From NCBI RefSeq assembly GCF_000519325.1, contig NZ_KI912613.1:730935-794934 (forward strand): a stretch of DNA of 64,000 bases, written 5' to 3'. Both the position numbers and the translations under genes were made by a program. Shown in pieces: positions 28,558 through 52,753 of this stretch. How positions within the stretch are numbered: position 1 is the stretch's first letter; each line of letters begins with the position of its first letter. The stretch comes from Patulibacter minatonensis DSM 18081. Lineage in GTDB: Bacteria > Actinomycetota > Thermoleophilia > Solirubrobacterales > Solirubrobacteraceae. The notes under the pieces were generated by a model that did not search any database, had not been told where the DNA came from, and was given only the letters and a program-made list of their open reading frames with translations.

Positions 28558-28558
28558 A

Positions 28559-29413
28559 TCAGCCTCCGACCGGGGACGCGGGGTTCAGACCCCAGAACAC
28601 CATCGTCAGGACCGATCCGATGACGTGGATCAGGACGAGGTTGAGGATCATCGACCGCGCGGTCGCCGATCCGACGCCGACCGGTCCACCCTTGGCGGTG
28701 TAGCCGTAGTACATCGCCACCAGGACGATCGCCATGCCCATCGCCATGATCTTGATCTCGGAGTACAGGACGTCGACGGGCCGGATGAAGGCCCAGTGGA
28801 CCCCTTCCCAGCCGCCCTTGGAGACCTCGCCGATCTGGTCGACGATGATCACCTGGTTGGCGACCATGTGGAACGCCAGGCCGACGAGGTAGATCATCGG
28901 GAACGCGATGATGCAGGCCATCAGGCGCGTCGCGACGACGTAGCGCATCGGGTTGATGCCGAGCGACTCCATCGCGGAGAACTCGTTGTTGATGCGCATC
29001 GACCCGAGCTCGGCGACGAGGCCGCAGCCGACCTTCGCGGCGATGATGTAGCCCCACATGTAGGGCCCCATCTCGCGGATGCCGCACCAGGCGGTGAACA
29101 CGCCGGAGTACGCCGAGGCGCCGTACCCGCGGAGCACGTAGTTCGCCTCCGTCGCGCACTGCATGCCGATGACGAACTGCATGAGGGCCACGACCACGAG
29201 CGACCCGGTGACGAGGATGCCGACCTGCCGCAGGATCTCGGCCGAGTAGCGGAAGACGCCACGGAGCTCGAGCACGGCGCGGCCCGAGAACTGCGCGAGC
29301 TCCCCGGCCTCCTTCAGGACGCCGCGGACGGGCCCGGTCAGGCCCTCGCGCAGACGAGCGGGGGCGGTGGGCCGGCGGACGACGGGGTCGCCGGCGAGCG
29401 AGGGAGCCGACAT
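28559..29413 (-). CDS. YrbE/MlaE-type ABC permease (second)
   Basis: The protein has 284 residues with five to six hydrophobic helices. The family signature region reads VAELGSMRINNEFSAMESLGINP, which is the EExDA-like motif of MlaE permeases that contacts the ATPase. It pairs with the permease encoded immediately upstream (start and stop share one base). The two would form a heterodimeric channel beneath the MCE ring. Start: ATG at 29413, sharing its first base position with the upstream stop. Confidence 0.92.
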   Translation of the reverse strand: MSAPSLAGDPVVRRPTAPARLREGLTGPVRGVLKEAGELAQFSGRAVLELRGVFRYSAEILRQVGILVTGSLVVVALMQFVIGMQCATEANYVLRGYGASAYSGVFTAWCGIREMGPYMWGYIIAAKVGCGLVAELGSMRINNEFSAMESLGINPMRYVVATRLMACIIAFPMIYLVGLAFHMVANQVIIVDQIGEVSKGGWEGVHWAFIRPVDVLYSEIKIMAMGMAIVLVAMYYGYTAKGGPVGVGSATARSMILNLVLIHVIGSVLTMVFWGLNPASPVGG

Positions 29414-30276
29414 CAGTGGAGGTTCCCGGTCTCGGGGAAGGCGGCGAGCATCGTCGTCGTGAAGACGAAGTTGAACGCCCAGATGCCGACGAACGACAGG
29501 ACGACGGCCTGGTTGACGGCGCGACCGACGCCCTCGGCCCCGCCCTTGACCGTCATGCCCTTGTAACAGCAGACGACCGCGACGATGAAGCCGAAGAGGC
29601 TGGTCTTGATCACGCTGCCCAGGAGGTCCGGCAACGTGAAGTTCGAGGAGAAGGTGGCGAGGTAGCCGGCCGACGTGTCGCCGAAGACGGGGACCGCGGC
29701 GATCCAGCCGCCGACGAGGCCGAAGACGATCGCGACGAGGTTCATCAGCGCGGTCACGAGGCCGAGGGCGAGGAAGCGCGGGACGACGATCGTGCGCACC
29801 GGGTCCATGCCGAGGACGGCGAGCGCGTCGAGCTCCTGGCGGACCTTGCGGGCGCCGAGGTCGGCGCAGATCGCCGTGCCGCCGACGCCGGCGATCACCA
29901 TGCCGTTGATCCATGGCGCGAACTCGCGCACGGACGCCATCACGAAGAACGCGCCGAGCCGGTCGACCGTCCCGAAGATGTACGTGATGTTGCCGCCCTG
30001 GATGCCGGGGGCACCGAGGCCGAAGAACGTCGTCGAGATCACGACCGGGATGAAGCACCGGCGGATGATCAGGAACGTCTGCTCGATGAACTCGTCGCGC
30101 CAGACGAACGGGCGCGTCACCGACGCCCGCGCGGCCTGGCCGACGAGCAGGAGCATCGCGGCGATCTCTTCGAGCACGGCGGCGAGGCCGCTGCTCGACT
30201 TCTTGTCCGGCGGCGGCGTGGACGGCTCGGTGGGCGTCTGCGGCAGCGTCGGGGGTGCGAGGGTCGCGGCTTCCAT
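29413..30276 (-). CDS. YrbE/MlaE-type ABC permease (first)
   Basis: The protein has 287 residues. A Pro/Thr-rich cytosolic N-terminus (1-30) is followed by five to six membrane helices and the MlaE signature CADLGARKVRQELDALAVLG, whose ExDAL motif couples to the ATPase. It lies 27 bases after the ABC ATPase gene. With the second permease, the ATPase and the Mce proteins it makes a complete lipid importer. Confidence 0.92.
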   Translation of the reverse strand: MEAATLAPPTLPQTPTEPSTPPPDKKSSSGLAAVLEEIAAMLLLVGQAARASVTRPFVWRDEFIEQTFLIIRRCFIPVVISTTFFGLGAPGIQGGNITYIFGTVDRLGAFFVMASVREFAPWINGMVIAGVGGTAICADLGARKVRQELDALAVLGMDPVRTIVVPRFLALGLVTALMNLVAIVFGLVGGWIAAVPVFGDTSAGYLATFSSNFTLPDLLGSVIKTSLFGFIVAVVCCYKGMTVKGGAEGVGRAVNQAVVLSFVGIWAFNFVFTTTMLAAFPETGNLH

Positions 30277-30303
30277 CAGCCCGCCCTCCTCTCGGATCGG
30301 GGG

Positions 30304-39093: not shown

Positions 39094-39141
39094 GGCCGGC
39101 GGGGCGGCCCGCCGGCGCGTCCGCGCGTCGGCGGAGGCGGG

Positions 39142-39385
39142 ACGTGGTCGGCCTTCGGCCGCTGGGAGCGCACAAGTCGCGACCACGTCCCGACGGCCGG
39201 GGGCGTGGTCGACGTTCGGCCCCTGGCAGCGCTCGGATCGCGACCACGTGCCGACGGCCGGCGACGTGGTCGACCTTCGGCCGCTGGGAGCGCACAAGTC
39301 GCGACCACGTCCGGGTGGCCGAGGACGTGGTCGACGTTCGGCCCCTGGCAGCGCCCGAACCGCGACCACGTCCCGACGGCCGACG
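39142..39385. repeat. Tandem palindromic repeat array A, 4 x 61 bases
   Basis: Four units start at 39142, 39203, 39264 and 39325. Each has inverted arms ACGTGGTCG...CGACCACGT (the second unit begins GCGTGGTCG) around about 27 bases. Units 1 and 3 are nearly identical, as are 2 and 4, so a 122-base dimer was duplicated. The array fills most of the 301-base gap between the convergent regulator and mftM genes; no gene is seen there. A single related unit lies at 58573-58615. Confidence 0.92.
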
Positions 39386-39394
39386 CCGCCCTCG

Positions 39395-40453
39395 TCAGTC
39401 CTTGCGGTCGAGCACCAGCCAGCCGCCGCGCATCGTCGCCGTGCGGGCGTGCCAGCCGCGGAGCCCGCGCGCGAGCGCGAGGAGCCCGTCGGCGTCGAAC
39501 GCCTGACGGTGGCCGTAGGCCGGGTCGGGCGTGCGCTCCAGCGGGACCGCGACGACCACCCGCCGGGCGGCCAGGCGGGTGAGCTCGTGGAGCACCAGGC
39601 GGTTCATGCGGGCGGGGAGGTGCTCGAGGACGTGCAGCATCGTGACCGTGTCGAACGCTCCGGCCCGGTGCGGGGTGCGGGTCGTGATGTCGAGCGGCTC
39701 GAAGCGCACCGACGAGCCGCGGTCCGCCGCCATGCGCGAGGCGAGCGCCGCCGTCCCCGGGAGCAGGTCGCTGCCCGTCACGCGGAGCGACGGATCACGC
39801 CCGAGCAGCAGCGGGAAGAAGCCGAAGCAGCTGCCGACGTCGAGGACGCGGTGGCCGACGACGAGGCCCGCCGCGAGCCGGTAGATCGGCGCGAACGTCG
39901 CGACCGCCCCCGTGCCCTGCCGGGTCGGCGGTCGCAGCAGCGCACGGATCGTGTTCGCGTAGAACGCGCGCCACGCGACCGCCGGGTCCTCGTGCAGGGA
40001 CGCCACCACGCCGACGAACACGGCCTCGAACGCTGTGCACGGGTCGCCGGGCAGGAGGCCGGGACGGATCAGGTCGTGCGCGATCGCGTCGCCGAGGTCG
40101 TCGTCGACCTCCGTGACCCGGAACGTGTGGAGGACGACGGTCCGGCCGCCCTCGCGCCGGAGCAGGAACCGGCCGGCGTGCTGTTCGTGGGCCCCGTACG
40201 ACCGGGCCGAGGCGGGGAGCCTGCGGACGACGATCTGCGCGGCGGTATCGGGGATCGGGACGCCGGCCGATCCGACCGCCCGGCGACCGCCGACAGTGCG
40301 GGTCGCCGACCTCGGGGCGAGGCCGCCCGCACCGTCGACATCTGACGACGCGTCACGGCCCTCGCCGGGGATCCCCGTCCCGCCGAGGTCGAGGTCGAGG
40401 AACTCCGGCAGCGCCCACGCGGGGCCCGCGTCCTGTCGTGTCACGGTGCTCAT
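39395..40453 (-). CDS. mftM: Mycofactocin-associated SAM-dependent methyltransferase (MftM-like)
   Basis: The protein has 352 residues. It has a variable N-terminus (1-90), a conserved block (FLLRREGGRTVVLHTFRVTE, AVAWRAFYANTIRALLR) and a class I methyltransferase fold (about 195-345) with motif I VLDVGSCFGFFPLLLG and motif LHVLEHLP. The block before the fold fits the mycofactocin oligosaccharide methyltransferase, which methylates the glucose chain on mycofactocin. Location beside the MFT locus supports this. The ATG overlaps the VWA gene stop, so it is co-transcribed with coxE-like/moxR. Assignment is from memory of the family. Confidence 0.7.
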   Translation of the reverse strand: MSTVTRQDAGPAWALPEFLDLDLGGTGIPGEGRDASSDVDGAGGLAPRSATRTVGGRRAVGSAGVPIPDTAAQIVVRRLPASARSYGAHEQHAGRFLLRREGGRTVVLHTFRVTEVDDDLGDAIAHDLIRPGLLPGDPCTAFEAVFVGVVASLHEDPAVAWRAFYANTIRALLRPPTRQGTGAVATFAPIYRLAAGLVVGHRVLDVGSCFGFFPLLLGRDPSLRVTGSDLLPGTAALASRMAADRGSSVRFEPLDITTRTPHRAGAFDTVTMLHVLEHLPARMNRLVLHELTRLAARRVVVAVPLERTPDPAYGHRQAFDADGLLALARGLRGWHARTATMRGGWLVLDRKD

Positions 40454-42018
40454 CCGACGAACGCCTCCCGGGCGCGCTCCTCGAGCTGGTCGAGGTCGCG
40501 CACCTGCTCGACCACGTCGCAGACGGGGGTGTAGAGGTCCATGTCGCACGAGCCGAGGCGACGGTTGCGCTCGGCCTCGGGCGTCAGCCACGTCAGCCGA
40601 CGGCAGCGGCTCCCGATCTCCTCGAGCGCCTCGACGTTCGGCGGCCGGCCGTTGCCGCGCCCGTCGCCGAGGACGAGGACGATCGTGCGGCGGTCGACGG
40701 AGCGGAGGTGGTCGGTCGTGAACGTCCCGAGCGCGCGGCCGTAGTCCGACGAGGCGTCGAGGTCGAGGCCGGAGCGGGTCATCATCTGGGCCAGGGCGAC
40801 GTCGGGGTCGGGGTCGCGGAGCTGCTCGGAGATGTCGACGAGCTCGTCGACGAACGCGAACGTGCGGACGCGGTCGAAGCGCTGCTGGACCCCGTGGACG
40901 AGGTGCAGGGCGAACCGCGCGGTGTTGCGGACCGACAGGCTCAGGTCGACGAGGACCACCAGGCGCGGCCGGTCGGGCTTCCTGGCGACGGTCGCCGGGC
41001 GGACCGGGACGCCGTCGTGGCGGAGCGCCGAGCGCATCGTCCGCGCGGCGTGGATCCGGCCGTGCTCGGCGGGCTGCCTGCGCGGGGACGCGGCGCCGCG
41101 CAGCTGACGGGAGAGGCGGCCGAGCAGCTCGTCCATCCGCACGCGCTCGACGTGCGTGAGGTCCAGCCGGAGGCCCATCGGCAGCTCGTCCTCCGGCGAC
41201 TCCTCGGCCTCGAAGCCCTCCAGGTGCTTCCGGAGGAGCTCGGCGAGGTTGTCGATCTCGCCGCCGCGGACCTGCGCCATCCCCTTGCGCTCCTCCTCCT
41301 CGCCGTCCTGCAGCAGCGACGGGAGGACGCCGGCGGCGAGGTCGAAGCCGCCCTCGAGCGGGTCGCCGTCGTCGTCGGCCAGCCCGCCGGCCTCGCCGGC
41401 GTCGGAGACCCGGTCGAGGTTCAGGACCTGACCGAGCCCGGACGCGTCGCCCTCGAGCGCGCCGCCGAGGGTCAGCTCGTCGTCCTCGGAGGACAGGTCG
41501 AAGCCGTCGTCCTCCTTGTCGAGCCGCTCGGTCCGGACGTCGGGGTCGCTCTCGACGTCGAAGAGGTCGCCGAGCTGCGCGCCCGCGGAGCCGTCGTCCT
41601 CGACCTGCTCCTCGTCGGGGTCGGCGAGGCCCGTGATGTGCCCCTGCCGGAGGGCAGCGTCGTCCTCCGGGTCGACCGACCACGGCAGGAAGAAGCGCGC
41701 GAACAGCTCGTCGAAGACGTCCTCGTCGCGCCCCCGCTTGACCAGGGTCGTGCGCAGCGCGGCGCGCACCCCGTCGCGGCGGTCGAGCGAGACGGCGCGG
41801 ACCGCCCGCAGTGCGTCGAGGGTCTCGGACGGCGAGACCCGGAGGCCGGCGGACCGCAGCGCCGTCGCGAACGCGAGCAGCACGCCGTCGAAGTCGTCGG
41901 CCGGCCGGGCGCCGTCGACGCCCGGGACGATCGTCCTGGGGCGCGCCGCCGCGCGGGCGGCGGGCGTCACCGCGGTGCCGACGCGGCCGTGCCCGTCGCG
42001 GCGGGTCTGCCAGGTCAT
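40450..42018 (-). CDS. CoxE-like VWA-domain protein
   Basis: The protein has 522 residues. An N-terminal helical domain (about 40-125) and a strongly acidic, low-complexity middle (130-280) precede a von Willebrand A domain (about 340-510) with an intact MIDAS start DLSLSVRNT and later VLVLGDGRGN. Such proteins partner with MoxR AAA+ ATPases in assembling or activating metalloenzymes (CoxE/CoxD for CO dehydrogenase; MoxR in methanol oxidation). The MoxR gene is 3 bases upstream. Proposed client: the adjacent MFT-dependent alcohol dehydrogenase. Confidence 0.85.
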   Translation of the reverse strand: MTWQTRRDGHGRVGTAVTPAARAAARPRTIVPGVDGARPADDFDGVLLAFATALRSAGLRVSPSETLDALRAVRAVSLDRRDGVRAALRTTLVKRGRDEDVFDELFARFFLPWSVDPEDDAALRQGHITGLADPDEEQVEDDGSAGAQLGDLFDVESDPDVRTERLDKEDDGFDLSSEDDELTLGGALEGDASGLGQVLNLDRVSDAGEAGGLADDDGDPLEGGFDLAAGVLPSLLQDGEEEERKGMAQVRGGEIDNLAELLRKHLEGFEAEESPEDELPMGLRLDLTHVERVRMDELLGRLSRQLRGAASPRRQPAEHGRIHAARTMRSALRHDGVPVRPATVARKPDRPRLVVLVDLSLSVRNTARFALHLVHGVQQRFDRVRTFAFVDELVDISEQLRDPDPDVALAQMMTRSGLDLDASSDYGRALGTFTTDHLRSVDRRTIVLVLGDGRGNGRPPNVEALEEIGSRCRRLTWLTPEAERNRRLGSCDMDLYTPVCDVVEQVRDLDQLEERAREAFVG

Positions 42019-42021
42019 CGC

Positions 42022-43119
42022 TCAGCCCGTCGACTTCACGGAGCCGTAGTACCCGCCCGACCGCGTCGCGCGGTGGTTCGCCGCGTCCTCGGGTGCGACG
42101 CGGTCGCCGGCGTACCGCGAGGAGCGGCCCTCGGCGCCGTCGAGCACCTCGCGGATCGAGCGCCGCACCGTGTCGACGTCGCGGTCGTACTTCACGAGCA
42201 GCGTCAGGGTGTCCTCGAGGATCCGGCGGTCGAGCGTGCGGGCGCCGAGGACGACGAGCGCGCGGGCCCAGTCGATGGCCTCGCTGATCGACGGCGCCTT
42301 GCGGAGCTCCAGCTCGCGGATCGCGCGGACGGCGCGGACCGCCTGGGTGCGCAGCTCGTCGTCGATGCCGGGGACGCGCAGGCGCACGATCTCGAGCTCG
42401 CGGGCCTCGTCGGGGTAGCCGAGCGAGAGGTGCAGGCAGCGGCGCTTGAAGGCCTCCGACACGTCGCGGGTCGCGTTGGACGTCGCGATCACGATCGGGG
42501 CCGTCCGGGCCGTCAGGGTGCCGATCTCGGGGACCGTCACCTGCATCTCGGCGAGGACCTCGAGCATCAGGGCCTCGAGCTGCTCGTCGGCGCGGTCGAT
42601 CTCGTCGATCAGGAGCACGCAGGGCTCGGGCGAGCGGATCGCCTGGAGCAGCGGGCGCTCGACGAGGAAGCGCTCGGAGAAGAAGATCTCGCCGTGCTCG
42701 TGGAGGCGGTCGGCGGCCTCCTCGATGGTCGAGGTGTCCTCCAGCAGGCCGTCGATGCGGGACTTCAGGAGCTGCGTGTAGAGCAGCTGCTTGCCGTAGT
42801 CCCACTCGTACAGGGCCTTCGTGTCGTCCTGGCCCTCGTAGCACTGCAGGCGCACGAGCCGGCGGCCCGTGACGGTCGCCAGGGTCTTCGCGAGCTCGGT
42901 CTTGCCGACGCCGGCGGGGCCCTCGATGAGCACCGGGCGCTGCAGGCGCTCGGCGAGGAAGACGGTCGTCTCGGTCTGGCTGGTGGAGACGTAGTCGTGG
43001 TCGCGCAGGCGTTCCCGGACGTCCTCGACGGACGAGAAGCCGGCGACCCGGTCGGTCGTCGGGGCAGCCGGCTGGTCGGGCATCCGGGGGACCACCTGGT
43101 CGGTCGTGCGGTCGTGCAT
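42022..43119 (-). CDS. MoxR-type AAA+ ATPase
   Basis: The protein has 365 residues. Walker A is GPAGVGKTEL (about 67), Walker B CVLLIDEIDRAD (about 165), sensor 1 IVIATSNATRD and an arginine-finger region FKRRCLHL; a C-terminal lid domain follows. MoxR ATPases work with VWA proteins as chaperone-like activators of enzymes. It lies 69 bases after the dehydrogenase gene and 3 bases before the VWA gene, all on the minus strand, so the four genes from the dehydrogenase to mftM may be one transcript. Confidence 0.9.
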   Translation of the reverse strand: MHDRTTDQVVPRMPDQPAAPTTDRVAGFSSVEDVRERLRDHDYVSTSQTETTVFLAERLQRPVLIEGPAGVGKTELAKTLATVTGRRLVRLQCYEGQDDTKALYEWDYGKQLLYTQLLKSRIDGLLEDTSTIEEAADRLHEHGEIFFSERFLVERPLLQAIRSPEPCVLLIDEIDRADEQLEALMLEVLAEMQVTVPEIGTLTARTAPIVIATSNATRDVSEAFKRRCLHLSLGYPDEARELEIVRLRVPGIDDELRTQAVRAVRAIRELELRKAPSISEAIDWARALVVLGARTLDRRILEDTLTLLVKYDRDVDTVRRSIREVLDGAEGRSSRYAGDRVAPEDAANHRATRSGGYYGSVKSTG

Positions 43120-43188
43120 CGGGAAGCACCGGGACGCGTCCGCGCGCCGCTCCGGGGAGCAGCGCGCGGACGCGTCGTGCGGCGTCGC

Positions 43189-44448
43189 TCAGCGGCTGCC
43201 CGAGAGGGCGGCGCGGACGACCGGCTTCATGCGCTCGTACGTGACCTCCATCGGGTTGCCCGGGGTGCAGGAGTCGCCGAGGATGTGCTTCGAGATCCGC
43301 TCCACGTCGTTCTCGTCGCCCTTGATCTGGCGGCCCTTGCCCTCGTAGACGCCCTCGTTCATCCGGTTCTTGGAGTACTCGCCGACCTCCTTGAAGTTCT
43401 TCGGGATGCCGACGTCGTCCGCCAGGCGGATCGCTGCCTCGACGGCGGCCTCCGCGCGCTGGACGGTGGAGAGGCCCTTCGTCTCGACGCCCATCGCCTT
43501 GGCCAGGTGGGCGTAGCGCTCGTAGCGGGCGGAGAGGTTGTACTCCCACACGTGCGGCAGCGCGATCGCGTTGTTCAGGCCGTGGTGGCTGTCGTAGAAC
43601 GCCGACACCGCGTGCGAGATCGAGTGGACGATGCCGAGGCCGCCGGAGTTGAACGCCTGCGCGGCGATGTAATGGGCCCACATGAGGCCGGTGCGGGCCT
43701 CGTAGTTGTGCGGCTCGGCGACGGCCTTGCGCAGCCACTTGTTCGTCCACTCGACGGCCGTGTAGGCCTGGCCGAGGGACGGCGGGAAGTCGAGACGCGA
43801 CACGTACGGCTCGGAGCCGTGCGCGAGGATGTCGAAGCCGCAGAACGCCGTCAGGTCGGTCGGCAGGTCGTAGTAGAGGATCGGGTCGCAGATCGCGAGC
43901 GTCGCGATCGAGCGGTCGTCGAACGCGACGTACTTGTGCGGGTTCTCCGGGTCGGACGTGTCGGTGATGACGTACGCCCAGGAGGTCTCCGAGCCGGTGC
44001 CGGCCGTGGTGGAGATCGCGATGTGCGGCGGGTTGACCGGGTTCGTGGACTGGTTGAAGCCCTCGAACTCGTTGATGTTGCGGCCGTCGTGCGCCGCGAC
44101 GATGCGGGCGCCCTTGCAGGCGTCGTGGGTCGAGCCGCCACCCACGGAGACGAAGCTGTCGAGCCCCTCGTCCTTGTACACCTGGTAGGCGTCCATGACG
44201 TTGTAGTCCTTGGGGTTGGACTCGACCTTGTCGAAGACGACGACGTCGATCCCCTGGTGCCGGAGCTTGCCGGCGATGTCGTCGACGATGTCCGTGCCCC
44301 GGAGACCCGAGGTCATGAGCAGCGTCTTCTTGAAGCCGAGGTTCTTGGCCTCGACCCCGACGAGCTCGTACGCACCGGCGCCGATCAGGCCTCGCGGAAC
44401 GTTGTGGAACTCCTTGATGGGGAACTCGTGCAGACGATCGAACTGCAT
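43189..44448 (-). CDS. mdo: Mycofactocin-type NDMA-dependent methanol/alcohol dehydrogenase
   Basis: This 419-residue iron-containing (group III) alcohol dehydrogenase has GGGSTHDACKG for cofactor binding, and metal ligands in DILAHGSEPYV, GIVHSISHAVSAF and DSHHGLNNAIALPHV. The sequence follows the Mdo/ThcE class of actinobacterial NDMA-dependent enzymes, in which NAD(P) stays bound and electrons pass to mycofactocin. Substrates are methanol and other short alcohols. GAGGAG stands 10 bases before the ATG. The upstream region shares motifs with the promoter of the GAF regulator at 37768, which may activate it. Confidence 0.85.
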   Translation of the reverse strand: MQFDRLHEFPIKEFHNVPRGLIGAGAYELVGVEAKNLGFKKTLLMTSGLRGTDIVDDIAGKLRHQGIDVVVFDKVESNPKDYNVMDAYQVYKDEGLDSFVSVGGGSTHDACKGARIVAAHDGRNINEFEGFNQSTNPVNPPHIAISTTAGTGSETSWAYVITDTSDPENPHKYVAFDDRSIATLAICDPILYYDLPTDLTAFCGFDILAHGSEPYVSRLDFPPSLGQAYTAVEWTNKWLRKAVAEPHNYEARTGLMWAHYIAAQAFNSGGLGIVHSISHAVSAFYDSHHGLNNAIALPHVWEYNLSARYERYAHLAKAMGVETKGLSTVQRAEAAVEAAIRLADDVGIPKNFKEVGEYSKNRMNEGVYEGKGRQIKGDENDVERISKHILGDSCTPGNPMEVTYERMKPVVRAALSGSR

Positions 44449-44566
44449 GGTGGGTGCTCTCCTCGCGCGGTCCTGGGGGGACCCGGTCGTGTTCGACCGC
44501 GGGCCATCCGGCGACCGCGGTTCCTCGACCGTCCGGTCGAGGTGGTCGCCAGTGAACCGGCCGTCT

Positions 44567-44628
44567 CCGGGTTGCAGAGAGGTTGCAGTTGCACCCGGTG
44601 TCGAATCGATGAGGCACCGGGTGTCGAA
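44567..44628 (-). promoter_or_regulatory. Upstream regulatory motifs of the alcohol dehydrogenase gene
   Basis: Two 14-base near-repeats, CACCCGGTGTCGAA (44592-44605) and CACCGGGTGTCGAA (44615-44628), stand next to three GTTGCA elements (44571, 44582 and 44588), and CCGGGTTGCA (44567-44576) faces TTGCACCCGG (44589-44598). The same CCCGGTGTC and GGTTGCA words occur in the promoter of the GAF regulator at 37768. Candidate activator sites. Confidence 0.5.
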
Positions 44629-44675
44629 AACCCCCGTTCCGACGCGGGACGCGGCCGGTGTGCGGCCGCGGCGGG

Positions 44676-45293
44676 TCAGCCCGCGGCGGGCGGCGCGAGG
44701 CCGAGGGCCTCGTCGGAGAAGCCGGCGCCCAGGAGGTCGAGCGCCCGCTCGAGGTGCGTCAGGAGCTCCCCGCCGTGGGAGACCCAGTACCGGTAGCTGG
44801 CCATCGCGGTGCCCAGCGCGGTCGACGCGATCGTCTCCGGCAGGAGGTCGTCCGGCCCGACACCCAGCCGCTCGCCGACGTGGTCCTGGACGACGCGGCA
44901 CCAGTCGGCGTAGCGGATCGCCGAGTGGGCCTGGAGCGCCGGGACGGAGGTGATGAGCTCCATCCGCGCCCGGATCGACTCGTCCCCGTCGGCCGGCCAG
45001 CTGTTGAAGGCGACGATCGCCCGGCGCACCCCGGCGAACAGCGGCTCGTCCGCCGGGGACTTCCGCAGCTCGGCCGCGAACCGCTCGAGCTCGCGGTCGA
45101 ACTCGCCCCACACGATGTCGTTCTTCGACGCGAAGTAGCGGAAGAGCGTGCGGCGGGTGACGCCGACCGCGGCGGCGATGTCGTCGACCGTCGTCTCCTC
45201 GAAGCCGTCGCGGACGAAGAGCGCGAGCGCGACGTCCTGCACCTGGTCGCGGGACGTCGACCGCGGCCGGCCGGTCGGTGCGGGACCGCTCAC
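44676..45293 (-). CDS. mftR: TetR-family mycofactocin system regulator
   Basis: The protein has 205 residues from GTG at 45293. The TetR HTH (about 12-58) reads DQVQDVALALFVRDGFEETT, VGVTRRTLFRYFASKNDIVW. The C-terminal part (DEPLFAGVRRAIVAFNSW, ITSVPALQAHSAIRYADW) matches MftR. In mycobacteria MftR represses the mft operon and is released by long-chain acyl-CoA. It is divergent from mftA across a 108-base gap holding a perfect operator-like palindrome. Confidence 0.88.
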   Translation of the reverse strand: MSGPAPTGRPRSTSRDQVQDVALALFVRDGFEETTVDDIAAAVGVTRRTLFRYFASKNDIVWGEFDRELERFAAELRKSPADEPLFAGVRRAIVAFNSWPADGDESIRARMELITSVPALQAHSAIRYADWCRVVQDHVGERLGVGPDDLLPETIASTALGTAMASYRYWVSHGGELLTHLERALDLLGAGFSDEALGLAPPAAG

Positions 45294-45324
45294 GGTGCAA
45301 CCCCCATGCAACTCGACGGATGTT

Positions 45325-45355
45325 TTGACACTGAGGGGCGAAAGTGTCCTAGGAT
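45325..45355 (+). promoter_or_regulatory. mftA promoter with embedded palindromic operator
   Basis: TTGACA (45325-45330, consensus -35) and TAGGAT (45350-45355, -10) are 19 bases apart. GACACT (45327-45332) and AGTGTC (45343-45348) form a perfect inverted repeat covering the -35 and the spacer. A TetR-type repressor bound here would block RNA polymerase; MftR is the obvious candidate. Confidence 0.7.
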
Positions 45356-45401
45356 GCGGTCCGTCACACGAGGCAACCTAGAGCAGAACGGAGCCAGGAC
45401 C

Positions 45402-45536
45402 ATGAACAACGATCCCCAGATCGAGACCGCCGAGGCCACGGAGACCGAGGTCGAGACGACCGCGACCACCGAGCTGATCGACGAGCAGCTGCTCGTCGAG
45501 GACGTGTCCATCGACGGCATGTGCGGCGTCTACTAG
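45402..45536 (+). CDS. mftA: Mycofactocin precursor peptide MftA
   Basis: The precursor has 44 residues, too short for many gene callers. It has an acidic, Thr/Glu-rich leader (VETTATTELIDEQLLVEDV) and the diagnostic core IDGMCGVY at the C-terminus. The last Val-Tyr are decarboxylated and cross-linked by MftC, then released and processed to the redox cofactor by MftE, MftD and MftF. The stop is followed 3 bases later by mftB. It is the first gene of the operon, behind a strong promoter. Confidence 0.97.
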   Translation: MNNDPQIETAEATETEVETTATTELIDEQLLVEDVSIDGMCGVY

Positions 45537-45539
45537 GCC

Positions 45540-45890
45540 ATGTCGACGCCGACCACCGCGCCCGCCCCGGCGGACGCCACCACACAGGCGGGCGCGGCGG
45601 ACTGGGCGGGTGGGCACGAATTCTCGCTCGACGCCGCCTGGACCCTGAACCCGCAGGTCGCCCTGCGCCCCGAGCGCTTCGGCGCCCTCGCCTACCACTT
45701 CGGCACGCGCCGGCTCTCGTTCCTGAAGAGCCCGCACCTGCTCACCGTCGTCGAGCGGCTCGCCGACCACCCCACCGCCCGCGCCGCGTGCCTGGACGCC
45801 GGCCTCGACGCCGCCCAGACCGCCACGTTCGGCAAGGCGCTGGCCACCCTGGCCCGCACCGACATGATCGTCCCGAGGAACCCCGCATGA
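45540..45890 (+). CDS. mftB: Mycofactocin peptide chaperone MftB
   Basis: This 116-residue RRE-type (PqqD-like) chaperone binds the MftA leader and delivers it to the radical SAM enzyme. Family features are ALRPERFGALAYHFGTRRLSF and LKSPHLLTVVERLADH. An N-terminal Ala/Pro/Thr-rich stretch of about 25 residues is extra. The stop overlaps the mftC start (ATGA), so B and C are translationally coupled. Confidence 0.95.
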   Translation: MSTPTTAPAPADATTQAGAADWAGGHEFSLDAAWTLNPQVALRPERFGALAYHFGTRRLSFLKSPHLLTVVERLADHPTARAACLDAGLDAAQTATFGKALATLARTDMIVPRNPA

Positions 45891-47365
45891 GCACCGTCCT
45901 TCCCCGCGCCGGGGTGCCCGGCCCGACCGCCGCGTCCGCGACGTCCACCCGCACGCCGATGGACGACCTGCTCGCCACGAGCGCCGCCGCCTCCGCGCAC
46001 GCCACCGGCCACGCGACCACCGCCGCCCCGACCGGCGCGCAGATGCGCCCCGTCGGCAGCCTCGTCGACGAGTTCCAGTCCGGCCTCGACGCCCCGATCT
46101 GCCTGACGTGGGAGCTCACGTACGCCTGCAACCTGGCCTGCGTCCACTGCCTCTCCTCGTCCGGCCGCCGCGACCCGCGCGAGCTCTCGACCGCCGAGTG
46201 CAAGGGCGTCATCGACGAGCTGCAGCGGATGCAGGTCTTCTACGTGAACATCGGCGGCGGCGAGCCGACGGTGCGCAAGGACTTCTGGGAGCTCGTCGAC
46301 TACGCGACCGCCCACCAGGTCGGCGTGAAGTTCTCGACCAACGGCTCGCGCATCGACGCCGCCGTCGCGGAGAAGCTCGCCGCCTCGGACTACGTCGACG
46401 TGCAGATCTCGCTCGACGGCGCGACCGCGGAGGTCAACGACTACGTCCGCGGGCCCGGCTCGTACGACACCGCCATGACGGCGATGGGCCACCTGAAGGA
46501 CGCCGGCTTCTCGGGCTTCAAGCTTTCCGTCGTCTGCACCCGCCAGAACATCGGGCAGCTCGACGAGTTCAAGGCGATCGCCGACCACTACGGCGCGCAG
46601 CTGCGCCTGACCCGCCTGCGCCCGTCGGGCCGCGGCGCGGACACGTGGGACGAGCTGCACCCGCTCCCGGAGCAGCAGAAGGAGCTCTACGACTGGCTCG
46701 TGGCGCACGGCGAGGACGTCCTCACGGGCGACTCGTTCTTCCACCTCGCCGCGTACGGCGACGCCCTGCCGGGCCTGAACCTCTGCGGCGCCGGGCGCGT
46801 CGTCTGCCTGATCGACCCGATCGGCGACGTCTACGCCTGCCCGTTCGCGATCCACGACGAGTTCCTCGCCGGCAACGTCCGCTCCGAGGGTGGGTTCCAG
46901 GGCGTGTGGCAGACGTCCGAGCTCTTCCTCGAGCTGCGCGAGCCCCAGTCCGCCGGCGCGTGCAACTCCTGCGACTTCTTCGACAAGTGCCGCGGCGGCT
47001 GCATGGCCGCGAAGTTCTTCACCGGCCTGCCGATGGACGGCCCGGACCCCGAGTGCGTGCTCGGCCACGGCGAGGAGCTCCTGAAGCAGCGCGGCGACGC
47101 GTTCATCCCGAAGCCGTCGATGGACCACTCCAAGAACCTGTCCAAGCGCCAGCGCCTGGAGAAGGCCGCCGCCGAGCGCGGCATCACGCTGCCGCCCGAG
47201 GGCCAGCCGCTGCCGGTCCGCCAGAACGGCGCGGGGATCCCGGACAAGGCGTGCGACGAGAACCCGCTCGCGGGCTTCGGCACCGCCGAGGTCGTCGACC
47301 GCGGCGCGAGCCCGTCCGTCGACCGCCTCGCCGGCCTCGGCTTCCCCAGTCGGCTCGAGGGCTGA
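45887..47365 (+). CDS. mftC: Mycofactocin radical SAM maturase MftC
   Basis: This 492-residue radical SAM/SPASM protein catalyses oxidative decarboxylation and C-C bond formation on the MftA Val-Tyr pair. The SAM cluster motif CNLACVHC has Cys at about 81, 85 and 88, followed by YVNIGGGEPTVRKDF. SPASM cluster Cys occur in NLCGAGRVVCLIDPIGDVYA and CNSCDFFDKCRGGC. An in-frame N-terminal extension of about 50 low-complexity residues and a C-terminal tail of about 90 residues make it longer than usual. A downstream ATG at residue 53 would give the standard N-terminus. Confidence 0.96.
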   Translation: MSTVLPRAGVPGPTAASATSTRTPMDDLLATSAAASAHATGHATTAAPTGAQMRPVGSLVDEFQSGLDAPICLTWELTYACNLACVHCLSSSGRRDPRELSTAECKGVIDELQRMQVFYVNIGGGEPTVRKDFWELVDYATAHQVGVKFSTNGSRIDAAVAEKLAASDYVDVQISLDGATAEVNDYVRGPGSYDTAMTAMGHLKDAGFSGFKLSVVCTRQNIGQLDEFKAIADHYGAQLRLTRLRPSGRGADTWDELHPLPEQQKELYDWLVAHGEDVLTGDSFFHLAAYGDALPGLNLCGAGRVVCLIDPIGDVYACPFAIHDEFLAGNVRSEGGFQGVWQTSELFLELREPQSAGACNSCDFFDKCRGGCMAAKFFTGLPMDGPDPECVLGHGEELLKQRGDAFIPKPSMDHSKNLSKRQRLEKAAAERGITLPPEGQPLPVRQNGAGIPDKACDENPLAGFGTAEVVDRGASPSVDRLAGLGFPSRLEG

Positions 47366-47368
47366 GCC

Positions 47369-48559
47369 GTGGCGAGCACGAAGGAGTGGTTCGAGTCGGT
47401 CGCCGAGGCCCAGCGGCGCGCGAAGAAGCGCCTGCCGGCCTCGGTCTACGGCGCCCTGATCGCGGGCGCCGAGTCCGGTGCCACCGTCGACGACAACACC
47501 GCCGCGTTCCGTGAGCTCGGCTTCTTCCCGCGCATCGCGACGGGCCTGAACCAGCCGCGCGAGCTCGGCACGACGGTCCTCGGCCAGGAGCTGTCGCTGC
47601 CGGTCCTCGTCTCCCCGACGGGCGTGCAGGCCGTGCACCCGGAGGGAGAGCTCGCCGTCGCGCGCGCCACGAAGGCCGCCGGCACGGGGATGGGCCTCAG
47701 CTCGTTCGCGTCGAAGGCCGTCGAGGACGTCGTCGAGCAGAACCCGACGACCTTCTTCCAGGTCTACTGGATGGGCGGACGCGACCGGATCGTGCAGATC
47801 CTCGACCGGGCGCGGGCCGCGGGGGCGAAGGGCATCATCCTGACGCTCGACTGGACGTTCGCGCACCGTCGCGACTGGGGCTCCCCGGAGATCCCGGAGC
47901 ACCTCGACCTGCGCGCGATGGCGAAGCTCTCGCCCGAGGTCCTCCGCCGGCCGAAGTGGCTCGCGGCGTTCCTGAAGGCGGGCGCGCTGCCGGACCTCAC
48001 GGCGCCGAACATGACCCATCCGGGCGGTGAGGCGCCGACGTTCTTCGGCGCCTACGGCGAGTGGATGATGACCGAGAAGCCCTCCTGGGACGACATCGCG
48101 TGGATGCGCGAGCAGTGGGACGGGCCGTTCCTGATCAAGGGCATCACGCACCCCGAGGACGCCCTGAACGCCATCGAGGCCGGGGCGAGCGCGATCTCCG
48201 TCTCCAACCACGGCGGCAACAACCTCGACGGCACCCCGGCGACGATCCGCGCGCTGCCGGCCATCGTCGAGGCCGTCGACGGCCGGCTCGAGGTCCTGCT
48301 CGACGGCGGCATCCGCCGGGGCTCCGACGTCGTCAAGGCGCTCGCCCTGGGCGCCGACGCCGTGCTGATCGGCCGCGCCTCCCTGTGGGGCCTGGCCGCG
48401 AACGGCGAGGCCGGCGTGAACAACGTCCTCGAGATCCTCCGCGCGGGGATCGACGAGACGCTGCTCGGGCTCGGTCTGACGTCGGTGCATCAGCTCGACG
48501 CCGACCACGTCGTCGTGCCGGACGGCTTCACCCGCCGACCGGTCCACCAGACGACCTGA
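47369..48559 (+). CDS. mftD: Mycofactocin FMN-dependent oxidoreductase MftD
   Basis: This 396-residue member of the FMN-dependent alpha-hydroxy-acid dehydrogenase family starts at GTG 3 bases after mftC. Signature regions: LPVLVSPTGVQAVHPEGELA, FQVYWMGGRD, ISVSNHGGNNLDGTPAT (catalytic His) and LLDGGIRRGSDVVKALALGA (FMN phosphate). MftD oxidises the AHDP intermediate to the dione pre-mycofactocin, creating the redox-active group. Confidence 0.95.
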   Translation: MASTKEWFESVAEAQRRAKKRLPASVYGALIAGAESGATVDDNTAAFRELGFFPRIATGLNQPRELGTTVLGQELSLPVLVSPTGVQAVHPEGELAVARATKAAGTGMGLSSFASKAVEDVVEQNPTTFFQVYWMGGRDRIVQILDRARAAGAKGIILTLDWTFAHRRDWGSPEIPEHLDLRAMAKLSPEVLRRPKWLAAFLKAGALPDLTAPNMTHPGGEAPTFFGAYGEWMMTEKPSWDDIAWMREQWDGPFLIKGITHPEDALNAIEAGASAISVSNHGGNNLDGTPATIRALPAIVEAVDGRLEVLLDGGIRRGSDVVKALALGADAVLIGRASLWGLAANGEAGVNNVLEILRAGIDETLLGLGLTSVHQLDADHVVVPDGFTRRPVHQTT

Positions 48560-48569
48560 GCGGGCCCGC

Positions 48570-49433
48570 GTGTCCGTCGACGGTCCCGAGGTGCCGGCGC
48601 GCCATGGTGCGCGCCGTCGTCGGGACGCGTCGGCGGACCGCCCCGCGGGGTCGGGCGACGTGCGCGGCGTGCCGGCCGACGGCGTCCCGCGGCCGGCCCC
48701 GGACGGCTCCGGCGGCGTCGCCGCCTCGCGGGAGCACCTCTCAACGCGGACGTGGCCCGACCTCGAGGCCGCGCGCGGGCGGACGCTCGTCGTCCCCGTC
48801 GGCGCCACGGAGCAGCACGGCCCGCACCTGCCGCTGACGGTCGACACCGACATCGCGGTGGCGGTCGCCGCCCGGCTCGCGGAGGGCCGCGACGACGTCC
48901 TCGTCGCCCCGCCCGTCCACTACGGCGCCAGCGGCGAGCACCAGGCCTTCCCCGGGACGCTCTCGATCGGCCTGGAGGTCACGGAGCTCGTCCTCGTCGA
49001 GCTCGGCCGCTCGGCGACCCACACCGTCGACCGCGTGGTGTTCCTCTCGACCCACGGCGGCAACGCGTCCGCCGTCGCCCGCGCCGCCGCCCGCCTCCGC
49101 GACGAGGGCCGCGACGCCCGCGGCTGGTCCCCCCGCTGGGGCGGCGACGCGCACGCCGGCCGCGCCGAGACGTCGCTGATGCTCGCGATCGCCCCGGACC
49201 GCGTCCGGACCGCCGACGCCCGGCCCGGGAACACCGGGGCCCTGGTCGACCTCCTGCCGGCGATGCGCGAGGGCGGCGTCGTCGCGGTCAGCGACAACGG
49301 GATCCTCGGCGACCCGACCGGCGCGACCGCCGCGGAGGGCGAGGCCCTGCTGTCCCGCGCCGCCGCCGAGCTCGGGGCGGTCCTCGACGCGTGGGTGCCG
49401 CGCGGAAGCAGGACCGCCGGGGAGGGCACGTGA
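48570..49433 (+). CDS. mftE: Mycofactocin creatininase-family peptidase MftE
   Basis: The protein has 287 residues from a GTG 10 bases after mftD. The first 55 residues are low-complexity and may not all be translated; the enzyme core starts near LSTRTWPDLEAARG. Metal-binding motifs are GATEQHGPHLPLTVDTDIA and STHGGNASAV, with DAHAGRAETSLML downstream. MftE cleaves the modified Val-Tyr from the leader. Its stop overlaps the mftF start (GTGA). Confidence 0.93.
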   Translation: MSVDGPEVPARHGARRRRDASADRPAGSGDVRGVPADGVPRPAPDGSGGVAASREHLSTRTWPDLEAARGRTLVVPVGATEQHGPHLPLTVDTDIAVAVAARLAEGRDDVLVAPPVHYGASGEHQAFPGTLSIGLEVTELVLVELGRSATHTVDRVVFLSTHGGNASAVARAAARLRDEGRDARGWSPRWGGDAHAGRAETSLMLAIAPDRVRTADARPGNTGALVDLLPAMREGGVVAVSDNGILGDPTGATAAEGEALLSRAAAELGAVLDAWVPRGSRTAGEGT

Positions 49434-51061
49434 CCTCGGCCGCGGCGCGCGACGCCGGTGGGCCGCGCGATCCCGGAGCGCCGTCGTCCACTCCGCGGGC
49501 GGCCGGCCTCGACGTCCCGGTGGCGCTCTCGGCCGGCACCCGGAGGAGCGGCGGCGGACGGGTGCTCGCCGGCGGCATGCCGCGGCGGATCCTCCGGCTC
49601 TCCGCGGCCGGCGCGACGACCCTGGACGCCCTGCTCGAGGGCTGGCCCGTCGGCCCCGCGGGCGCCGGGCTCGCGCGCAGCCTCGTCGACGCGGGCGCGC
49701 TCGACCCCGTGCCGGTCGCCGGAGCCCCCCGCCCCGCCGTCACCGTCGTGATCCCCGTCCGCGACCGCGCGGAGGAGCTCGACCGCTGCCTGACCGCCCT
49801 GGGCACCGCCGACCCGGTGGTCGTCGTCGACGACGGCTCGACCGACCCGGCCTGGCTCGCGGCGGTCGCCGGTGCGCACGGAGCGCGCCTGCTGCGCCGG
49901 GACGAGAACGGCGGTCCCGCCGCCGCCCGCAACGACGGCCTCCGCCTCGTCGAGACCCCCGTCGTCGCCTTCCTCGACAGCGACTGCGTCGTCCCGACCG
50001 GGTGGCTCGACGCCCTCGGCGGCCACTTCGCCGACCCGCTGGTGGCGGCCGTCGCGCCACGGGTGGCGTCGGCGGGAGGCGGGGACGCGGGTGGCCGGAC
50101 CGGGCCCGTCGCCGCCCACCGCGGGGCCGCCTCCGACGACGTGGACGTCGCCCACCCCCCGTCGGGACTCGAGTCGACGGGCCGTGGAGCACCGCCGAGC
50201 GCGGTCCGCACCCTGACCGGTGGCCGCCGGCCGACGCGCACCACGCTGGCGCGCTTCACCGCCGTCCGCTCGCCCCTCGACCTGGGGCCGCGGGCAGCGT
50301 CGGTCCGGCCCGGCGGCCCCGTCCCGTACGTGCCGACCGCCGCGCTGCTCGTCCGTCGCGATGCCCTCGGCGCCGGCTTCGACCCGGCCCTCCGGTTCGG
50401 GGAGGACGTCGATCTCGTCTGGCGCCTCCACGACGCGGGCCGCCGGATCCGGTACGACCCGCGGGTCGTCGTCCGCCACGCCGAGCCCGGATCGTGGCGC
50501 GCGCTCCTGCACCGCCGCTACCGGTACGGCACCTCCGCGGCCCCGCTGGCCGCGCGCCACGAGGGGCGGCTCACCCCGCTGGTGCTCCGGCCCTGGCCGA
50601 CGGCCGCGGTCGCCCTCGCCCTCGCCGGTCGACCGCGCGCAGCCGGGGTCGTGGCCCTCGCCCAGACCGTCGTGCTCGGCCGGACGGTCCGCGCCGCCGG
50701 AGGACCGGCCGCGATCGCCGTCCCCTGGGGCGGTGAGGCCCTCCTGATGACCGCCGAGGCCTCCGGGCGCGCAGCGATCCAGCTCGCCGGGCCCGCCCTG
50801 GCCGCGGGCCTCCTCCGCCGTCGCACCCGTCGCGCCGCCGCGACGCTCGTCCTCGCCGCATCCGCCCGCGGGGCCTGGCGCGCCCGCGCCCACATCGACC
50901 CGATCCGCTGGACCCTGGCCTCCGCCGCCGACGAGGCCGCGTACGGCCTGGGCGTGTGGCGCGGCGCCTGGCGCCACCGCACCTGGGCCCCGGTCCGCCC
51001 GTCGACCAGGTCGCCGGGGGACGCGGCGCGCACGGCGAGGGGTTCCCGCCGGGAACCGTAG
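49430..51061 (+). CDS. mftF: Mycofactocin glycosyltransferase MftF
   Basis: This 543-residue GT2-family glycosyltransferase has a fold from about 100: VTVVIPVRDRAEELDRCL, VVVDDGSTD, AFLDSDCVVP and, after an insertion, RFGEDVDLVWRLHDAGRRI. The N-terminal domain (to 100) is MftF-specific in position. The C-terminal part (about 380-510) has hydrophobic helices suggesting membrane contact. MftF adds beta-1,4-glucose units to pre-mycofactocin. A Gly/Ala/Ser-rich insert (about 210-255) between the DxD-like motif and the acceptor region looks longer than typical. Confidence 0.93.
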   Translation: MTSAAARDAGGPRDPGAPSSTPRAAGLDVPVALSAGTRRSGGGRVLAGGMPRRILRLSAAGATTLDALLEGWPVGPAGAGLARSLVDAGALDPVPVAGAPRPAVTVVIPVRDRAEELDRCLTALGTADPVVVVDDGSTDPAWLAAVAGAHGARLLRRDENGGPAAARNDGLRLVETPVVAFLDSDCVVPTGWLDALGGHFADPLVAAVAPRVASAGGGDAGGRTGPVAAHRGAASDDVDVAHPPSGLESTGRGAPPSAVRTLTGGRRPTRTTLARFTAVRSPLDLGPRAASVRPGGPVPYVPTAALLVRRDALGAGFDPALRFGEDVDLVWRLHDAGRRIRYDPRVVVRHAEPGSWRALLHRRYRYGTSAAPLAARHEGRLTPLVLRPWPTAAVALALAGRPRAAGVVALAQTVVLGRTVRAAGGPAAIAVPWGGEALLMTAEASGRAAIQLAGPALAAGLLRRRTRRAAATLVLAASARGAWRARAHIDPIRWTLASAADEAAYGLGVWRGAWRHRTWAPVRPSTRSPGDAARTARGSRREP

Positions 51062-51155: not shown

Positions 51156-51277
51156 GGCGGGCGGTCGGGTGCTATTCGTCAAGCCCTGCCGCACGACGGA
51201 CCATCGGCTCTGCCACGGCGGGCGGTCAGGTGCGATTCGTCAAGCCCTGCCGCACGACGGACCATCGGCCGTACGCC
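51156..51277. repeat. Tandem repeat array B, 2 x 61 bases
   Basis: Two units start at 51156 and 51217 and share GGTCGGGTGC or GGTCAGGTGC, ATTCGTCAAGCCCTGCCGCA and GACGGACCATCGG. They lie between mftF and the convergent AbiEi-like gene. Unit length and edge sequences match array C on the far side of that gene. Confidence 0.85.
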
Positions 51278-51354
51278 ACGCATCGGTCGTGAGACGCGCG
51301 TCGACCCCCGGAACCTGCCCGTGTCGCCCCGCGAGCGCGGAACGGCCGAGTCGC

Positions 51355-52448: not shown

Positions 52449-52753
52449 TCCCGGTCGGGTGCGCTTCGTCGCGTCACGCGCGACAACGGACCATCGCCCC
52501 GCCCATGCCTCCCGGTCGGGTGCGCTTCGTCGCGTCACGCGCGACAACCGACCATCGCCCCGCCCATGCCTCCCGGTCGGGTGCGCTTCGTCGCGTCACG
52601 CGCGACAACCGACCATCGCCCCGCCCATGCCTCCCGGTCGGGTGCGCGTCGTCGCGTCACGCGCGACAACCGACCATCGCCCCGCCCATGCCTCCCGGTC
52701 GGGTGCGCGTCGTCGCGCCACACGCGACAACCGACCATCGGCCGCCATCCCTC
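52449..52753. repeat. Tandem palindromic repeat array C, 5 x 61 bases
   Basis: Five units start at 52449, 52510, 52571, 52632 and 52693. In each unit after the first, outer arms GGTCGG...CCGACC enclose inner arms GTCGCG-TCACG-CGCGAC (the last unit has lost part). The array fills half of the 582-base gap between the AbiEi-like and L,D-transpeptidase genes; the rest shows nothing clear. A frame is open through it, but 61 is not a multiple of 3, so it is not protein repeats. Confidence 0.93.

Follow-up and report, generated by a model that had tools for sequence, protein, structure and literature searches.

The window analysed here—a stretch of 64,000 nucleotides of Patulibacter minatonensis DSM 18081 (contig NZ_KI912613.1), set in a 5.52 Mb single-contig genome—carries a mycofactocin locus next to the gene of a type III alcohol dehydrogenase (Mdo), which is followed by the genes of a MoxR-type AAA+ ATPase (MadB) and a CoxE-type protein with a von Willebrand factor A (VWA) domain (MadC). 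The three-gene unit mdo-madB-madC is real and widely conserved, a type III alcohol dehydrogenase being accompanied by its own MoxR/VWA machine, joined in this case to a mycofactocin locus. It appears, with a probability somewhat better than even, that MadB and MadC form a machine dedicated to activating Mdo, the step concerned being probably the loading of its metal. That Mdo is the client of the pair is highly probable; that the job of the pair is the loading of metal has about an even chance.

Linkage of the ATPase and VWA genes with mdo

In the window, mdo and the ATPase gene are separated by 69 nt, the ATPase and VWA genes by 3 nt, and the VWA gene overlaps the methyltransferase gene mftM by 4 nt, so that the arrangement is operon-like. 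Genome contigs were scanned with an alignment of five Mdo sequences, and the best-scoring 80 of the 382 relatives found were fetched; these loci include near-copies (e.g. L007/L057 and L060/L062) and originate from Actinomycetota, Chloroflexota and Competibacteraceae. Among these best 80 of 382, madB lies behind mdo in the same orientation in 78 loci and madC does so in 74, i.e. the linkage is near-obligate. Both genes are missing from L015 and L083, and madC from L013, L014, L039 and L088; since five of these six loci stand at contig ends, the remaining one—L083 from Pseudonocardia acidicola—is the sole true local miss, and its genome has the pair on another contig, within a second complete mdo-madB-madC-mftM set. 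The genome of L015 also has the pair on another contig, which may be the remainder of a broken locus. On plasmid records, the ATPase gene stands beside mdo in all five cases with a full-length mdo of at least 60% identity, and the VWA gene comes next in each of the four of these loci that were read.

The second survey, which is less subject to bias, covered 296 genomes evenly drawn from the phylum. An mdo gene at E 1e-150 or better was found in 13 of them, MftC in 34 and full-length MadC (at least 213 bits) in 17, the next best MadC match being partial at 163 bits; MadB at 356 bits or more picks out the identical 17 genomes. The thresholds were chosen after the scores were known, the gap being clear for MadC (213 versus 163 bits) but not for MadB (356.5 versus 353.5 bits). 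When the DNA was read, mdo was present with the pair in 17/17 of the genomes with full-length MadC (the source genome being represented by the window itself), including five in which mdo is too weak for the 1e-150 cut; in L091, L092 and L096 it had been matched in part only or as two pieces. In G130, mdo-madB and madC lie on two contigs, and the one with madC starts in a fragment of an ATPase gene. G163 is the one genome that has mdo without being among the 17; its contig ends about 340 nt from the gene. In total, mdo is found in 18 of the 296 genomes and the pair in 17 of these 18. An earlier note, made from the letters of the window, had asked whether MoxR and VWA genes stand next to mdo-type genes in other genomes; the counts of both surveys (78/80, 74/80 and 17/17) answer that they do, and the possibility of chance neighbours was rejected on the two locus counts.

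Some variants of the unit may be mentioned here. L048 (9439-17925), from a metagenome-assembled genome of Pseudonocardia, has two consecutive mdo-madB-madC units, apparently of two different types judging by identity to those of the window. The units of L007 and L009, on plasmids of Mycolicibacterium chubuense and Rhodococcus, point away from genes whose annotation is that of methane/ammonia monooxygenase subunits, with which they are divergent, and in G076 (L105, 6942-10176) the VWA gene is duplicated in tandem behind the ATPase gene.

Sequence and structural features of MadB and MadC

The MadB of the window has both the Walker A (GPAGVGKTE) and the Walker B (VLLIDEIDRAD) motif intact in the alignment; a MoxR-type AAA+ protein of this kind, encoded next to a VWA gene, is what a couple of the NorQD/CbbQO type consists of. 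In the evolutionary tree, 41 mdo-linked MadB sequences form a single group, and a branch with a support of 97/95 separates them from nine other MoxR proteins, CoxD among them. Histidine-rich tails, i.e. at least six histidines per 20 residues near the C-terminus, are present in 23 of the 79 complete MadB copies (up to 14 histidines), the background being 38 of 988 other open reading frames of the same loci (maximum 9), chosen by length and possibly including non-genes. These tails are seen in Chloroflexota, Rubrobacter, Solirubrobacterales, Geodermatophilus, Streptomyces and others, L011, the nearest relative of the MadB of the window, being one of those that have it. As to a C-terminal [YF][YF]G motif suggested by the alignment, the pattern [YF][YF][GT] occurs in 23 of 94 MadB tails, and it is therefore no hallmark.

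The structural model of MadC comprises a helical N-domain (residues 39–124), a low-confidence linker (about 125–283), judged as such from the low predicted local distance difference test (pLDDT) values alone, and a VWA domain (about 343–521). This order of an N-domain, a linker and a C-terminal NorD-like VWA domain again suits the NorQD/CbbQO type, and a long strand ahead of the VWA core (310–322) is a candidate for a finger that would reach into the hexamer pore. The metal-ion-dependent adhesion site (MIDAS) has its D-x-S-x-S at positions 358–362, and D358, S360, S362, S424 and D452 are invariant in 27 aligned MadC sequences; the fourth position is, on the present reading, a serine, the published DxSxS-T-D motif having threonine, and the site is taken as a MIDAS. 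Foldseek finds as the best match of the model the NorD chain of the NorQD complex (9qhe_G, E 2.8e-6) and as the next one the MIDAS domain of midasin, both of them partners of AAA+ rings. VIA-align places the Rea1-MIDAS structure 6qta at the top (Z 12.8, root-mean-square deviation 3.8, 193 residues) and gives Z 11.7 for NorD (9qh8; deviation 6.8, 220 residues). The identities in the fold matches are 15–18%, and a sequence search of solved structures with five MadC sequences found nothing.

Occurrence of the trio without mycofactocin

Of the 18 genomes with mdo, 12 have an mdo-like gene and neither MftC nor MftD over the family cut-off. Eleven of them carry the pair, the mdo-like gene of the twelfth being at a contig edge. 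All 12 belong to one family, f18, presumed to be Rubrobacteraceae; nine of the genomes are at least 92% complete and three (G270, G280 and G290) only 75–82%. Their mdo-like genes score under the cut-off of TIGR04266, the identity to the Mdo of the window being 50–54% where fully matched and 44–59% in partial matches, and the protein is longer (454–463 amino acids in the three loci with genes called). On the other side, mdo (at E 1e-150) and full-length MadC are both missing from 29 of the 34 MftC-positive genomes. Because of these two observations, the pair tracks the dehydrogenase, not mycofactocin, and a role of the pair in making mycofactocin was rejected. Since the trio occurs in very different bacteria, some of them without mycofactocin, it is probably the enzyme as such that the helper makes ready, perhaps by loading its metal. 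The earlier note had supposed that the pair loads metal or nicotinamide into the dehydrogenase or exchanges its cofactor for electron transfer to mycofactocin; a role in activation or maturation fits the anatomy described above, but the part concerning electron transfer finds no support in the same two sets of genomes.

All six genomes with an mdo over the TIGR04266 cut-off have mycofactocin markers. This includes G237, counted as mycofactocin-positive, in which the mftC match (G237:C1:4043545-4044547) is in two pieces with profile positions 192–235 missing, owing to a frameshift, a sequencing error or decay.

The f18 operon (L091-L096 and L098-L103) contains, in a gene set that varies, gntR, the mdo-like gene, madB, madC and genes for NUDIX, Fur-like, NicO and SCO4226-like proteins. 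Downstream of madC, NUDIX is found in 10 of the 12 genomes, NicO in eight and the SCO4226-like protein ('nickel responsive') in five, the names coming from Pfam for one or two loci and from similarity for the remainder; a regulator taken from its sequence as of the Fur type follows madC in five.

Clues to the metal and the proposed activation of Mdo

The Mdo of the window has D206, H210, H275 and H289, which are presumably the metal ligands of the type III dehydrogenase fold. From an alignment, after rows that contained stops or were shorter than 340 residues had been dropped, a list was drawn up of the residues that never vary in 89 Mdo rows and are seldom found in 54 paralogues. The nearest solved relatives of Mdo are NAD-dependent methanol dehydrogenases with 10 chains per entry.

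Some lineages show histidine-rich tails on MadB, and some have nickel-type genes in the neighbourhood; both traits, together with data on Zur and zinc from Mycolicibacterium smegmatis, point to a metal, as hints and not as proof. In the zur mutant of the latter, MSMEG_6240-6242 are together down about 24- to 28-fold, as given in the cited part of PMC7174638. In mft mutants, the protein MSMEG_6241 is up together with MSMEG_6242 (PMC8406134, cited part), and MSMEG_6241 is SigB-dependent (PMC6529629, cited part). The NUDIX gene of the f18 operons points equally to a bound nucleotide; between metal and nicotinamide, the indirect clues lean towards metal.

A model for the mechanism is offered by NorQD, which gets iron into nitric oxide reductase and requires for this ATP hydrolysis, an intact MIDAS and carboxylates on the client surface (PMC9976466, passages cited). 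By the same logic with Mdo as the client, MadC would dock onto Mdo via its MIDAS site, the MadB ring with the VWA protein docked to it would convert ATP hydrolysis into a change of shape, and Mdo, once opened, could have its active-site metal, perhaps also its tightly bound NAD(P), placed.

Several points weigh against the activation of Mdo by metal loading. No experiment shows the pair touching Mdo, and the view taken in the passage cited is that NorQD, the best-studied relative, does not itself deliver the metal (PMC9976466). Zinc excess lowers, not raises, the expression of MSMEG_6242 (4.6-fold), and that of MSMEG_6240/6241 less, the latter values being bracketed in the source (PMC7174638, cited part). 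There is no histidine-rich stretch in the MadB of the window, nor such a tail in the MadB of the Rhodococcus/Mycobacterium mno type or of Competibacter. The nickel-type neighbours hardly occur outside f18: with profiles built from three or two f18 copies, no other locus searched was matched by NicO, which may moreover be an exporter, and two loci outside f18 were matched by the SCO4226-like protein. The MadC model has a mean pLDDT of 68.7 with the linker undefined, and integrin-type VWA domains reach a VIA Z of 12.7, on par with NorD. Finally, a sixth plasmid match to mdo, H46, is partial, covering 54% of the query at 69% identity.

Alternative explanations

The alternative that survives best, although it is unlikely, is that the pair removes a dead-end or wrong nucleotide from Mdo, or allows its tightly bound cofactor to be replaced, instead of loading a metal; CbbQO acts in this way on Rubisco. 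It would account for the NUDIX gene behind madC in the f18 genomes (Pfam-checked in two), the known activator of the methanol dehydrogenase (Mdh) of Bacillus methanolicus being a NUDIX protein, and would agree with the NAD-dependent methanol dehydrogenases as the nearest solved relatives of Mdo. Mdo-type enzymes have also been grouped with nicotinoproteins of non-exchangeable cofactor (PMC3023750, cited part), a property demonstrated by nuclear magnetic resonance and structure in another family, the short-chain dehydrogenases/reductases (PMC5264612, cited part). The removal of a nucleotide, however, leaves the histidine-rich tails and the nickel-type neighbours unexplained, and in loci of the mycofactocin type the NUDIX profile was matched only weakly in L050, in addition to a match at 61 kb of the window, far from mdo.

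A more specific form of metal loading, in which MadB/MadC would be the metal insertase of an alcohol dehydrogenase natively using nickel or cobalt, is doubtful. In that case the poly-histidine tail of MadB would hold the metal; its handling within the cell would fall to NicO and the SCO4226-like protein; and the machine would be older than the link to mycofactocin, which would have reached one branch of Mdo later.

It is improbable that the pair is needed solely for the folding of Mdo or the building of its oligomer, with no cofactor-specific step. The 10 chains per entry of the solved relatives fit such an assembly chaperone, AAA+/VWA pairs do remodel proteins, and the linkage would suit any client-specific chaperone. 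Many of the same operons, however, also encode Fe-ADH paralogues that share this fold and have no separate pair, so that possessing the fold is not enough to require one, and the clues to a metal would again be left unexplained.

Very little probability is assigned to a gate for electrons, i.e. to the pair opening Mdo and giving mycofactocin access to the bound NAD(P)H. Genes of the mft set do accompany the trio, both in the window and at numerous other loci (the flanks that were fetched contain mftM at 45 of the 80 loci and mftC or mftD at 24), but the 11 MftC- and MftD-negative genomes with the pair and the 29 MftC-positive ones without mdo and full-length MadC argue against it. It should be noted that the mdo of the 11 has diverged, and the point is strong only if the job of the pair is the same there. 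The least probable of all is that the pair works for a different neighbour (MftM or the second Fe-ADH), the adjacency to mdo being operon history: mftM comes directly after madC here and at many other loci, yet many loci do without mftM and many without the second dehydrogenase, and mdo accompanies the pair in every pair-bearing genome of the sample.

Relation to known systems

The activation of Mdo by MadB and MadC would belong to a kind of machine that is known, the client class, the version without mycofactocin and the clues to a metal being, as far as could be seen, undescribed. NorQ/NorD resembles the present pair as a MoxR ATPase with a VWA partner and one metalloenzyme as the client; NorD also has, in the part of PMC9976466 cited, an N-domain, a disordered linker and a C-terminal MIDAS domain, similar to the MadC model. 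The differences are the client, which is a membrane enzyme there and a soluble type III alcohol dehydrogenase here, the histidine-rich tail on some MadB, and the low identity of the fold matches. CoxD and CoxE of aerobic CO dehydrogenase belong to the same two protein classes and are encoded beside the CO dehydrogenase genes in Afipia carboxidovorans, but their client is a molybdenum enzyme. A misplaced CoxD/CoxE pair was rejected, since CoxD lies across the 97/95 branch from the mdo-linked MadB and the scanned neighbours are mdo and mft genes. The source genome has five VWA_CoxE matches, the second strong one, near 5.306 Mb, having its own MoxR; this second MoxR/CoxE-type pair (G000:C1:5304556-5306965) scores outside the mdo-linked group.

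The methanol dehydrogenase of B. methanolicus is of type III, too, and is 38% identical to Mdo. Its dedicated NUDIX activator is a hydrolase and not an ATP-driven machine; NUDIX is shared with the mycofactocin-free f18 operons.

The mno operon, Mdo and the link between Mdo and mycofactocin have already been published (PMC11303327 and PMC11778925, cited parts); in the latter study, the wild type of M. smegmatis used there did not grow on methanol. The mno operon of M. smegmatis (MSMEG_6242-6238) likewise comprises an alcohol dehydrogenase gene, the AAA ATPase gene MSMEG_6241 and the co-regulated MSMEG_6240 (PMC7174638 and PMC11303327, cited parts); its gene order is the same as in Tsukamurella, and from this order MSMEG_6240 would be a VWA protein. 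It differs by including a two-component system.

The earlier note knew of no described maturation system for mycofactocin-dependent dehydrogenases. This stands with regard to function: among openly licensed papers of PubMed Central (PMC), none explaining the names MadB/MadC or the function of these proteins was found, and mycofactocin or nitrosoaniline joined with MoxR, CoxE or von Willebrand yielded none but a prophage paper. It does not stand with regard to naming, since NCBIfam has the families MadB_ATPase (NF047784) and VWA_dom_MadC (NF047783). They are the best families of the two proteins of the window, yet both proteins are below the cut-offs (MadB 375.4 bits against 475, MadC 280 bits against 600). 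The cut-offs are exceeded by five of the six tested mdo-linked proteins of the mno type from Rhodococcus/Mycobacterium, the sixth, L049, reaching 473.8 of 475; those tested from M. chubuense, Competibacter and Chloroflexales are below. Public curation thus names the pair already, in one branch.

Mdo/Mno is a central mycofactocin-linked alcohol dehydrogenase and has attracted interest with a view to engineering the use of methanol. If the helper is required, recombinant Mdo produced without the pair may be partly or wholly inactive and its assays misleading. If the proposed activation is true, MoxR/VWA machines have a soluble alcohol dehydrogenase among their clients as well. The relatives without mycofactocin are a means of separating the role of the helper from that of mycofactocin.

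The locus in Patulibacter minatonensis

The genes named in the earlier note (mftABCDEF, mftR, mdo, those of the MoxR and VWA proteins, and mftM) are all present at their place and have been confirmed by family models (Table 1). Mdo, MftR, MftM and each of MftA-F exceed the NCBIfam cut-offs, which identifies mftA-F as the biosynthesis cluster of mycofactocin. As for the back-to-back layout described there, the divergent sets are real, but mftR lies on the minus strand and so belongs to the set on the mdo side. The start codon of mftE is uncertain, the TIGR03964 match starting at residue 57 of the frame 48570-49433.

Table 1 Genes of the mycofactocin locus and the mdo-madB-madC unit (positions within the window)
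Gene	Product	Position	Strand	Family evidence
mftM	mycofactocin oligosaccharide methyltransferase	39395..40453	-	NF041255, 242.9 bits, cut-off 200
madC-like	CoxE-type VWA protein	40450..42018	-	PF05762 (VWA_CoxE), E 2.8e-37
madB-like	MoxR-type AAA+ ATPase	42022..43119	-	AAA_5, AAA_3
mdo	N,N-dimethyl-4-nitrosoaniline (NDMA)-dependent (mycofactocin-type) methanol/alcohol dehydrogenase, type III	43189..44448	-	TIGR04266, 696.5 bits, cut-off 625
mftR	TetR-type regulator	about 44676..45317, start codon uncertain	-	TIGR03968, 228.4 bits, cut-off 224.9
mftA	mycofactocin precursor, 44 amino acids, C-terminal CGVY	45402..45536	+	TIGR03969, PF23709
mftB		45540..45890	+	TIGR03967, 109.5 bits, cut-off 33
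mftC	radical SAM maturase	45887..47365	+	TIGR03962, 647 bits, cut-off 265
mftD	pre-mycofactocin synthase	47366..48559	+	TIGR03966, 659 bits, cut-off 471
mftE	peptidase	within 48570..49433	+	TIGR03964, 289.6 bits, cut-off 172
mftF	glycosyltransferase	49430..51061	+	TIGR03965, 363.9 bits, cut-off 280

Elsewhere in the window, a possible mce operon is located at about 20500-30300 on the minus strand, with one match to the MCE family and one to an MlaE-like permease, both under the NCBIfam cut-offs. The locus itself is flanked on both sides by tandem arrays with a common period of 61 bp (39139-39382, 51156-51280 and 52449-52740), the units of the two right-hand arrays being related, about 66–68% alike over 53 nt.

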